A stretch of DNA of 53,302 nucleotides, from positions 1 to 53,302 of the forward strand of contig JACXUM010000022.1 in the NCBI GenBank assembly GCA_014763895.1, read 5' to 3'. This DNA is from Campylobacterales bacterium (GTDB taxonomy: Bacteria > Campylobacterota > Campylobacteria > Campylobacterales > Sulfurovaceae). Positions 43,354 to 45,985 of this stretch are shown piece after piece (position 1 is the first letter of the stretch; each line of letters starts with the position of its first letter). The position numbers and the translations under genes were made by a program. The notes under the pieces were generated by a model, which saw only the letters and a program-made list of their open reading frames with translations, made no database searches and had not been told where the DNA came from.

Positions 43354-43956
43354 TTATTTTTTTGCCGTCATTAAAAAGACGGTAAAATCACGGTGCGGCT
43401 TGCTGATCGTACTGGCCGTATCAAATTTGATTTCTTTAAACCCTGCTTTCTCTGCAATGACTTCCAGCGCCTCTCTGTCAAAACCGTGATGAAAAACACC
43501 TGTATTGTCACTGTGAAAACTCCCATCTTCTATATCAAGATCGGCAATCGCGATAAAACCGCCCTCACGCAGCATATCATAAAGTTTGGAAAAAAGGGCA
43601 ATGATATCTTCAAGATGATGGATCGTCATAGAAGAGATGATCCCATCGAATTTTCTATCCAAACTTTCGATACTGAGATCTTTTTGAATAATCTCTGTTT
43701 GACAAACAAACTCATCACATTTGTTTTCAAACTCTTTTAACATGGAAGGGGAGTTGTCCACCGCAACGATCTTATCCACAAAAGGGGCGATCAAAAAACT
43801 CAAAAGCCCGGTTCCTGCACCAAAATCCATCAGTTCCATAGATTTGCCTAATTTTATATTTTTTACTATTAACTCTGCAATGCTTTTGGCATTCTGAACA
43901 CGTTTGCTATTCATATCCCAAGATTTTGATTTATGTTCAAAGAGATCTTTATTCAT
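43354..43956 (-). CDS. Class I SAM-dependent methyltransferase
   Basis: A protein of 200 residues. ELMDFGAGTGLLSFLIAP is a canonical motif I, VAVDNSPSMLKEF motif II, DGIISSMTIHHLEDI motif IV, and LREGGFIAIADLD motif V. The family is UbiE/Methyltransf_11-like, and the substrate is not readable. It is convergent with the DUF3365 gene, 11 bases from its stop. It is also downstream of the TetR gene on the same strand (62 bases), so it could belong to the TetR regulon. Confidence 0.87.
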   Translation of the reverse strand: MNKDLFEHKSKSWDMNSKRVQNAKSIAELIVKNIKLGKSMELMDFGAGTGLLSFLIAPFVDKIVAVDNSPSMLKEFENKCDEFVCQTEIIQKDLSIESLDRKFDGIISSMTIHHLEDIIALFSKLYDMLREGGFIAIADLDIEDGSFHSDNTGVFHHGFDREALEVIAEKAGFKEIKFDTASTISKPHRDFTVFLMTAKK

Positions 43957-44018: not shown

Positions 44019-44672
44019 CTAGAAAAGCGTGCCTTGCCTTTCAATTTTAATCGAATCCCAGAAGTAATCCACATGTTTCTCGAAGAGTGAAACCACCGAA
44101 GAGGTCGATTTTTTGTCTAATTTTAGCAAAGAAACCTGCATTTGGTAGAAAAAAAGTGGTGAAAAAAACTCATTTGCCAATAATAATGGATCAGAAGACT
44201 TGATCATCTCGTTCTGCATCATTAAAAAGAAAAGACCAGAGAGCTTTTTAACATTCTCTTGATAGAAATATTCGTTATAGATCTCGCGAATACGCTCATT
44301 AAGCAATATTTCCTGCATCATAAGCTTGAAAAGTGCCTCATTCTGGTTGTCAAAGCTCAAAAGCTTAAATACCGTAGCAATAGACATTAAAAGGGATTTC
44401 CCCTGTTTATAGAGCTCCTGGCTCTCTTTACCTTCAAATATGGTCACTATCGCGGAGGAGGTTAGATCCGATACCAAAGTTTCCAGTATCTCATCCTTGT
44501 TTTTAAAGTGATTGTAAAGTGCGCTTTGCTTTACACCCATGGCTCCTGCTATATCTCTAACCGTAGTTGCCTTGTAACCCTTATTAGAGAAGAGTTTAAG
44601 TGAAATTTTGAGTATTTTCTCTTTGGTTTTACTTCCCTTGGATGGCAGGGAAACATCGCTCTCAGCGTACAT
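44019..44672 (-). CDS. TetR/AcrR-family transcriptional regulator
   Basis: A protein of 217 residues. The N-terminal DNA-binding domain is typical: KEKILKISLKLFSNKGYKATTVRDIA, then GVKQSALYNHFKNKDEILE. The C-terminal ligand-binding half is helical, with no recognisable ligand. AAAAGGAGT precedes the start. Its promoter (44692-44720) contains a perfect palindrome in the spacer, and three more copies follow at helical-phase spacing, so autorepression is strongly suggested. The neighbouring methyltransferase is its only downstream gene. Confidence 0.93.
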   Translation of the reverse strand: MYAESDVSLPSKGSKTKEKILKISLKLFSNKGYKATTVRDIAGAMGVKQSALYNHFKNKDEILETLVSDLTSSAIVTIFEGKESQELYKQGKSLLMSIATVFKLLSFDNQNEALFKLMMQEILLNERIREIYNEYFYQENVKKLSGLFFLMMQNEMIKSSDPLLLANEFFSPLFFYQMQVSLLKLDKKSTSSVVSLFEKHVDYFWDSIKIERQGTLF

Positions 44673-44691: not shown

Positions 44692-44720
44692 ATTATAGTG
44701 AACAATTGTTCATTTGTCAA
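44692..44720 (-). promoter_or_regulatory. Consensus sigma-70 promoter of the TetR gene with embedded operator
   Basis: On the minus strand the -35 is TTGACA (44715-44720) and the -10 is TATAAT (44692-44697), separated by exactly 17 bases. The spacer contains the palindrome TGAACAATTGTTCA (44699-44712), so a bound dimer would block RNA polymerase. Confidence 0.85.
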
Positions 44721-44839
44721 ACTATTCTATTTAAAACAAAGTGAACATTTGTTCACTAATATTTTTTTGCGCATTTATTTTTATGAACAAATGTTCACTA
44801 ATTGTAAAATAGATAAAAAATAAAATGAACATTTGTTCT
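44699..44839. promoter_or_regulatory. Array of four TetR-type operators, TGAACA-N2-TGTTCA
   Basis: The copies are TGAACAATTGTTCA (44699-44712), TGAACATTTGTTCA (44742-44755), TGAACAAATGTTCA (44784-44797) and TGAACATTTGTTCT (44826-44839). Their centres are 43, 42 and 42 bp apart, close to four helical turns, which would place all on one face of the DNA. Only the outermost copy has a mismatch. Confidence 0.82.
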
Positions 44840-45207
44840 TTTAAATATATTTAAAGTCCGTATCTACGGTTATTATAGGCATTTTTTGAATTTGATCAAG
44901 ATGGAGAGCGGGTATAGATGAGGAATAAAACCGTTAATTTGCATCTTCATTAATAGGCCGCATGTGTTTTTCTTTATGCACAAATCGAACCTATTTAATA
45001 TTCTATAATATATAAATACAATCCGAAAGGATGATAGCGACAGGGGAAAGAAAATTTCATTTCAAAAAATTATTTATAGTTAAAAATATTAAAACATAGA
45101 ATCAAAAATACTTTTTACTCAGAGCAAAGAAGTGAAAGGTATTTCATATTACTTCATCAGGCAACATTGTGTAGAAAGTTAAACTTAAAAAATTAAATAA
45201 AAAATTT

Positions 45208-45236
45208 TTGACATTTTTGGGTTCTTTATATACTAT
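45208..45236 (+). promoter_or_regulatory. Orphan sigma-70-like promoter
   Basis: TTGACA (45208-45213) and TACTAT (45231-45236) are 17 bases apart. No coding frame follows before the convergent Spy-like gene, so it could drive a short RNA of about 110-140 bases ending near the 45319-45354 hairpin and antisense to the Spy-like gene's 3' end. Confidence 0.4.
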
Positions 45237-45318
45237 ATTTACAAAATGGAAAGTGGGTTGATATTTGCAAAAATATATTTTTAATAGAATTTATATTATG
45301 TTAACCAATGTATATTTT

Positions 45319-45367: not shown

Positions 45368-45985
45368 TTACATATTATTATTTGGTTTCATGCCCATTCT
45401 ATTTTTGCGATGAGATAGAAGAAATAAAAGCTGATCTTTATTTAATATCTCTTTTGTCTTTTCTATACATCTCAGTTGAACCATCGTAGCATTCGCTTCC
45501 AATGAAGCCAGTTTTTCAACTTTCTCTTTCAAACTGTCTGCACTTGCACCTGATGTACCTGCTGATACAATTTCATTTCTAAGCGCAATGACTTCCGGCT
45601 TGATCTGTATCACTGCGCCCATTGTTTCCTTTCTTACCTTTAAAAGCTGTTCTTTTTGTTCATTAGTAAGAGCAAATGCCGGCTCATCCCAGTGTTGCAT
45701 AACCATTTTTGTCATATGAGGTAATCCGAACTTGATAAGAAACGGTGAATTCTGTTTCTTACCGGCCATTTTGTTCTTGCCCATTTTATGAGGACAGTAT
45801 GGATTGTTGTTTGACATTTTATTTTGACCACCCTGACCCATCATCTGCATACCTGAATTGCCCGCAGGTGCCGCCAACAGTAAACCGATTGAAGCTGCAG
45901 ATACTATTTTGGGTTTGCATATCCCTTTTTCGATTAATATCGCTTCTATAGCATCAAACAGGATAAGAACTTTCATCTCACTCAA
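45368..45985 (-). CDS. Spy/CpxP-like periplasmic protein, start uncertain
   Basis: A frame of 205 residues. The C-terminal half (about 100-200) is a helical Spy/CpxP/LTXXQ-like region: ALTNEQKEQLLKVRKET, ALRNEIVSAG and LKEKVEKLASLEA. The middle is Met/Asn/Gly/Lys-rich (MQMMGQGGQNKMSNNN). A signal-like segment (KPKIVSAASIGLLLAAPAG) starts only at about residue 23, and the residues before it look unrelated. A ribosome site (AAAAGGGAT) followed by ATG sits exactly there, but one base out of frame (ATGCAAACCC). One inserted base near 45916 would explain this; otherwise translation starts at 45985 or 45976. Envelope stress or metal-related chaperone role inferred. Confidence 0.65.
   Translation of the reverse strand: MSEMKVLILFDAIEAILIEKGICKPKIVSAASIGLLLAAPAGNSGMQMMGQGGQNKMSNNNPYCPHKMGKNKMAGKKQNSPFLIKFGLPHMTKMVMQHWDEPAFALTNEQKEQLLKVRKETMGAVIQIKPEVIALRNEIVSAGTSGASADSLKEKVEKLASLEANATMVQLRCIEKTKEILNKDQLLFLLSHRKNRMGMKPNNNM

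Follow-up and report, generated by a model that had tools for sequence, protein, structure and literature searches.

Why does a TetR-family gene in a Sulfurovaceae genome carry four evenly phased palindromes in front of it, and what does this array do at its place on the chromosome? We analysed the array in its window, the whole 53,302-nucleotide stretch of contig JACXUM010000022.1 (positions 1-53,302, forward strand), to which all coordinates refer, and compared it with related loci of other Campylobacterota. The features of the window that bear on these questions are the following.

43354..43956, minus strand: class I SAM methyltransferase gene (Pfam Methyltransf families), downstream of tetR
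44019..44672, minus strand: TetR-family gene (tetR), 217 aa, Pfam TetR_N, presumed to encode the binder of the array
44692..44720, minus strand: tetR promoter, TTGACA-17-TATAAT, 12/12 match, with site 1 in its spacer
44699-44712, no strand: site 1, TGAACAATTGTTCA, exact TGAACA-N2-TGTTCA, promoter-proximal
44742-44755, no strand: site 2, TGAACATTTGTTCA, exact TGAACA-N2-TGTTCA
44784-44797, no strand: site 3, TGAACAAATGTTCA, exact TGAACA-N2-TGTTCA
44826-44839, no strand: site 4, TGAACATTTGTTCT, one mismatch (ends TGTTCT), distal
44840..45278: stretch between array and dif, 439 bp, no open reading frame of at least 80 aa
45279..45306, plus strand: chromosomal dif, TTTTAATAGAATTTATATTATGTTAACC, 0 mismatches to the dif pattern

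An earlier note on this DNA had reported four copies of TGAACA-N2-TGTTCA before the TetR gene, 43, 42 and 42 bp apart. We recovered the four palindromes at 44699, 44742, 44784 and 44826, and the start-to-start spacing came out the same. The motif itself required a correction, because three of the copies are exact and the fourth carries one mismatch. The window-wide chance expectation was 0.009 for exact sites and, under a dinucleotide model, 0.28 for sites with up to one mismatch, and clusters of this kind were expected by chance at only ~2e-11 under the same model.

The protein encoded by tetR matched Pfam PF00440 (TetR_N) at 54.7 bits against a cut-off of 24, and its predicted fold aligned over nearly its full length with TetR structures. 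It has both the N-terminal helix-turn-helix and the TetR fold by which membership of the TetR/AcrR family is recognised. A structure search with the predicted fold returned generic TetR folds, with EthR at the top of the ranking (Z 18.6); RefZ and SlmA were absent among the structure matches listed, which does not by itself exclude either of them. The nearest structures to the model are ordinary TetR regulators, and this resemblance is uninformative on function.

On the minus strand, the promoter of tetR consists of TTGACA (44720-44715), a 17-bp spacer and TATAAT (44697-44692), with the whole of site 1 contained in the spacer, as had been described before. The same arrangement was found in 55 loci sharing the 42-bp-type consensus CTTGACA..TGAACAatTGTTCACTATAAT, in which the proximal site falls between TTGACA and TATAAT, so that a palindromic putative operator covers the gene's own promoter, as is characteristic of the TetR/AcrR family. 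In the 32-bp-type loci, TATAAT instead comes after site 3. These two arrangements indicate that tetR is likely autoregulated, with a predicted geometry that varies by lineage while the four sites persist. The methyltransferase gene of the window is probably co-transcribed with tetR. Downstream of tetR, a methyltransferase was found in 56 Sulfurovum-type loci and a membrane protein gene in 37. The methyltransferase at this position is an addition of the Sulfurovaceae only and is missing there in other families. Outside the Sulfurovaceae, the genes that follow tetR are convergent or no partner is conserved, indicating that tetR is a single-gene unit there.

We then examined how far the array is conserved. 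We found about 75 orthologues of the TetR protein across Sulfurovum, Sulfurimonas and related Campylobacterota; a whole-genome search added further ones, and orthologues were also present in Nitratiruptor-type genomes. Among the 89 loci with enough upstream DNA, 71 had exactly four exact degenerate sites upstream of tetR. The spacings between neighbouring sites in these 89 loci were restricted to 22, 31-34 and 41-45 bp, and their surrounding DNA contained no comparable site match. Spacing differed by lineage, being 42-43 bp in the Sulfurovum type, 32 bp in the Sulfurimonas type and 22 bp in the Nitratiruptor type (family f8, genus g22), and some single loci held mixed arrays that changed in whole-turn steps (42,32,42; 43,33,43; 33,31,22). 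In the 42-type arrays, the information per position was 1.38-1.59 bits within the sites versus about 0.27 around sites 1-3. All four sites were equally conserved, sites 2-4 as strongly as the promoter site, and the spacers were not.

The conservation of sites but not of spacers, together with the whole-turn changes in spacing, indicates at the sequence level that helical phase and the number four are selected, and that the number of turns (2, 3 or 4) is free. The earlier note had made its reading, four same-face operators at an autoregulated tetR promoter, depend on whether sites and spacing are conserved in relatives. Number and helical phase are conserved, the promoter overlap recurs in the 55 loci mentioned above, and this part of the reading is well supported. 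Of the modes of action that the note had suggested for the sites (cooperative or filament-like binding, or looping), a filament of touching dimers is a poor match, because it would demand one fixed spacing, yet 2, 3 and 4 turns all occur. The tetR tree agreed with the families at the minimum number of changes, indicating vertical inheritance of the gene.

The dif site, at which entangled chromosome copies are separated ahead of division, lies 439 bp beyond site 4 and did not appear in the earlier note. We identified it with a dif pattern built from the published dif sites of Sulfurovum NBC37-1 and Sulfurimonas denitrificans (PMC2731167 Table 2); in control sequence, even the closest chance matches carried 6 mismatches or more. 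For a comparison across loci we took the 76 that had at least 1 kb of upstream DNA and at least three sites. The results showed that dif was no more than 3 kb away in 68 of them, and the gap between array and dif ranged across loci from 34 bp to 1.9 kb. Published dif positions are consistent with this assignment. In Sulfurovum sp. NBC37-1, dif is at position 1,186,929 of 2,562,277 bp, and difH of Nitratiruptor sp. SB155-2 is at position 1,001,399 of 1,877,931 bp (PMC2731167 Table 2). In the genome that we took as NBC37-1 (G042), tetR is at 1,187,704 and the array is 581 bp from dif; in the one taken as SB155-2 (G134), tetR spans 1,000,611-1,001,231 and the array is 44 bp from dif. Both agree with the published positions. 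Just past dif in the window (45368-45985, minus strand) is a gene whose product is rich in methionine and asparagine and has no Pfam match. In 17 Sulfurovum-type loci, such a gene stands upstream of the array.

We also measured the position of tetR relative to the origin. With dnaA as the reference, tetR was located at 0.455-0.496 of the ori distance in 20 of 21 genomes, and in one genome (G020) it coincided with the GC-skew peak; within the window itself, no clear GC-skew flip was found. Ori distance alone is not decisive, because the control gene panC was likewise conserved in this respect, and we dropped it as evidence by itself. Adjacency to dif and a comparison of neighbouring genes in four families were used in its place.

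This comparison covered 20-kb regions around the terminus in 21 mostly complete genomes, and of the orthologue groups in them, tetR alone occurred near dif in each of the four families. The runner-up, murA, was near dif in three families and 8 genomes. In 20 of these genomes tetR lay between 127 bp and 2.1 kb from dif; in the remaining one, G284, the distance was 10.5 kb. In G284 (L171, L159), a half-dif, TTTCAAGAGAATATACATTATGAGGTTT, lies beside the array and the intact dif about 10 kb off, as if an element had integrated at dif. Two of the families use XerH/difH and two use an XerCD-type dif, and the link between tetR and dif is kept in both. All nine genomes examined from families f8 and f11 had the order xerH - difH - array - tetR, with xerH divergent. 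The Sulfurovaceae and Sulfurimonadaceae have an XerCD-type dif and no xer gene at the locus, and the array still adjoins dif. Orientation relative to dif was constant in families f1 and f7 with one exception, L040, a two-mismatch case. At one XerH-type locus (L152, genome G129), difH at 2718 is inverted relative to array and tetR, unlike in all the other XerH-type loci examined.

A scan of the genome for further copies had been suggested as a way to find the regulon. We searched 13 Sulfurovaceae genomes for GAACA-N2-TGTTC and obtained 70 matches, 43 of them in arrays. The 27 sites outside arrays were no excess over the 31 matches of a reversed control pattern in the same genomes, so the scan did not bring out a regulon. 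A search for pairs of sites returned at most one array per genome and no match for the control. The sole other exact TGAACA-N2-TGTTCA in the genome of the window (G000:C16:57205) was rejected as a regulon member, since the gene there is short and unrelated and the 13 genomes gave no excess. This site (L001, about 1300-1550) lies 17 bp before the short gene, which is helix-turn-helix-like, resembles DUF134 by eye and stands upstream of a cytochrome bd-like gene; just upstream, a second half-matching site falls within a TTGACT/TATAAT spacer.

Since the only detectable target is the promoter of tetR itself, beside dif, the interpretation that fits best is that the array and its TetR protein form an autoregulated nucleoprotein landmark at the terminus of replication; we consider this reading of the sequence rather probable. 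The maintenance of four sites, of the spacing rhythm and of the dif neighbourhood in four families suggests a marker of the chromosome end over an ordinary gene switch, and we infer a terminus function for the array. TetR dimers would occupy the four sites along a single face of the double helix. Through self-repression, the dimer on the site that overlaps the promoter would hold the protein at a low level, and the real output of the system would be the four-dimer patch near dif. This patch could pair two sister termini face to face, which would explain why phase and number are fixed and the turns vary, because identical sister arrays always match. Alternatively, it could tether the terminus to some partner located where the cell divides (FtsK, Xer, Z-ring proteins or the membrane). 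The outcome would be that sister dif sites come together at the septum during dimer resolution and cell division. Weighing against the landmark reading, the variable distance between dif and array speaks against array and recombinases forming one rigid complex. A role in ligand sensing may also exist, as the TetR protein has the predicted fold of ordinary ligand-responsive repressors.

We give about even chances to the broader proposal that this is an undescribed terminus system of the Campylobacterota, in which a repurposed TetR protein on a compact, centromere-like four-site array by dif would pair sister termini or anchor them at the septum, and which would have outlived the swap between XerH/difH and XerCD-type dif. 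Literature searches in papers available without subscription turned up no TetR gene or operator array with a described link to dif. For most of the bacteria without MatP, the way in which terminus and dif reach the division site is an open question, and a compact array by dif with one dedicated putative binder would make it testable with one protein and a 150-bp site. The locus would also provide an example of a transcription-factor fold without a detectable regulon, apparently kept for chromosome position. In practical terms, the array is a simple sequence marker for dif in these sulfur-oxidising Campylobacterota genomes.

Several other explanations were weighed against the terminus landmark. 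The array could belong to a plain autorepressor with redundant operators for tight cooperative self-repression, which lies beside dif only because rearrangements there are rare. The exact placement of the proximal site in the promoter spacer in 55 loci is what such a repressor would show, and symmetric rearrangement holds the ori distance of unrelated genes such as panC fairly constant. However, control of itself only has no output, given that there are no sites in excess elsewhere and that tetR is a single-gene unit in three families. Sites 2-4 are, moreover, conserved as strongly as the promoter site, and passive linkage is a poor fit to a region in which no other gene is kept near dif in four families; we regard this explanation as unlikely. 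In each of the nine genomes examined from f8 and f11, xerH and tetR diverge from either side of difH, which would suit a regulator of the Xer system that first controlled xerH and stayed on after XerH was replaced. The Sulfurovaceae and Sulfurimonadaceae, however, retain array, phase and dif linkage in full with no xer gene at the locus, and this history appears improbable to us.

A ligand-sensing repressor of an operon of tetR, methyltransferase and membrane protein genes, for example a detoxification switch, would be in line with the typical TetR fold and with the downstream methyltransferase (56 Sulfurovum-type loci) and membrane protein gene (37 loci). These operon genes are missing in the other families, where the four-site array persists, and the linkage to dif would be left unexplained, which makes this a very doubtful account of the array. 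Regions around dif attract insertions, and G284, with its half-dif by the array and its intact dif about 10 kb away, raises the question of whether tetR was carried in as cargo of an element integrating at dif. The tetR tree, however, matches the families at the minimum number of changes, the orientation relative to dif does not vary within f1 and f7 except in L040, and a second dif flanking tetR was not found; we find cargo status scarcely credible.

The terminus landmark would, by analogy of function, be most like MatP/matS and the ZapT linkers and a member of neither, and MatP is not a TetR protein. With MatP, which organises the Ter macrodomain of enteric bacteria, it shares a DNA-binding protein tied to the terminus and a proposed link between terminus and division machinery (PMC6538776, PMC7188993), and its sites are likewise confined to the terminus, the array lying by dif with no excess elsewhere. 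MatP has many sites across ~800 kb (PMC7188993), whereas here a single four-site array lies by dif, on the protein's own promoter. In Caulobacter crescentus, ZapT, which belongs to a family of transcription factors, binds the terminus region and connects it to ZapA/ZauP at the Z-ring (PMC7188993). It differs in being MerR-type, in its low sequence specificity in vitro, in being encoded in an operon with ihfA, and in having neither a phased array nor dif linkage.

Two TetR-family proteins that mark chromosome position were compared directly. RefZ of Bacillus is a positional marker with five near-palindromic sites (RBM) of conserved position (PMC6657595), and it shares its family and a weak sequence similarity with the window protein. 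The RBM sites occur singly and far apart, one of them close to oriC and two on either arm, in contrast to the one array here. The RefZ model NF037937 was the best NCBIfam match of the window protein, at 64.2 bits versus a cut-off of 180, and four orthologues scored 44-52 bits on it, similar to the MtrR or AcrR models. With scores far under the cut-off and, in the orthologues, no better than for MtrR or AcrR, and with one array by dif as its site distribution, membership of RefZ was rejected. SlmA of the Gammaproteobacteria uses the chromosome as a division landmark through dozens of sites (SBS) everywhere except the terminus (PMC6657595). Its sites avoid the terminus, whereas those described here occur only there. 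The window protein scored 35.7 bits on the SlmA model (cut-off 120) and there is no site excess outside the terminal array, so that SlmA membership was rejected as well.

Multi-operator TetR autorepressors such as EthR place several dimers on one operator region, and the present system resembles them in its probable autoregulation and its putative several dimers. The known ones, to our knowledge, act on an adjacent effector gene and have no tie to dif, and we know of no earlier description of four separate phased sites kept across families. At cer, PepA and ArgR are DNA-binding proteins that act on accessory DNA by a Xer site and need a fixed geometry. The presumed binder of the array is similarly placed next to a Xer site. 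An Xer accessory system of this type, with a rigid recombinase complex, would call for a fixed distance and helical register to the recombination site, and it was rejected in view of array-to-dif distances that run from 34 bp to 1.9 kb.

Finally, we examined genomes in which the system is reduced or missing. Some Sulfurovaceae have dif without a tetR gene (G011, G021), about 40% of the near-complete genomes of family f7 are without tetR, and further complete genomes have no tetR at all, some of them retaining dif. These results indicate that the system is dispensable, which counts against the landmark reading, and that it would aid dif without being required for it. Within f7, tetR was missing in all listed genomes of genus g46 and present in nearly all of the sister genus g18, which offers a natural comparison for terminus handling. 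At one locus (L069), there is a stop codon within tetR and the array is absent. The small Sulfurovum-type genome G003 (L164) retains only TetR residues 43-217, having lost the first part of the DNA-binding domain, and it has no array, no recognisable dif and a changed terminus position, a coherent loss of tetR, array, dif and position that we read as co-decay. Two Xer-type recombinase genes are still present in this genome.
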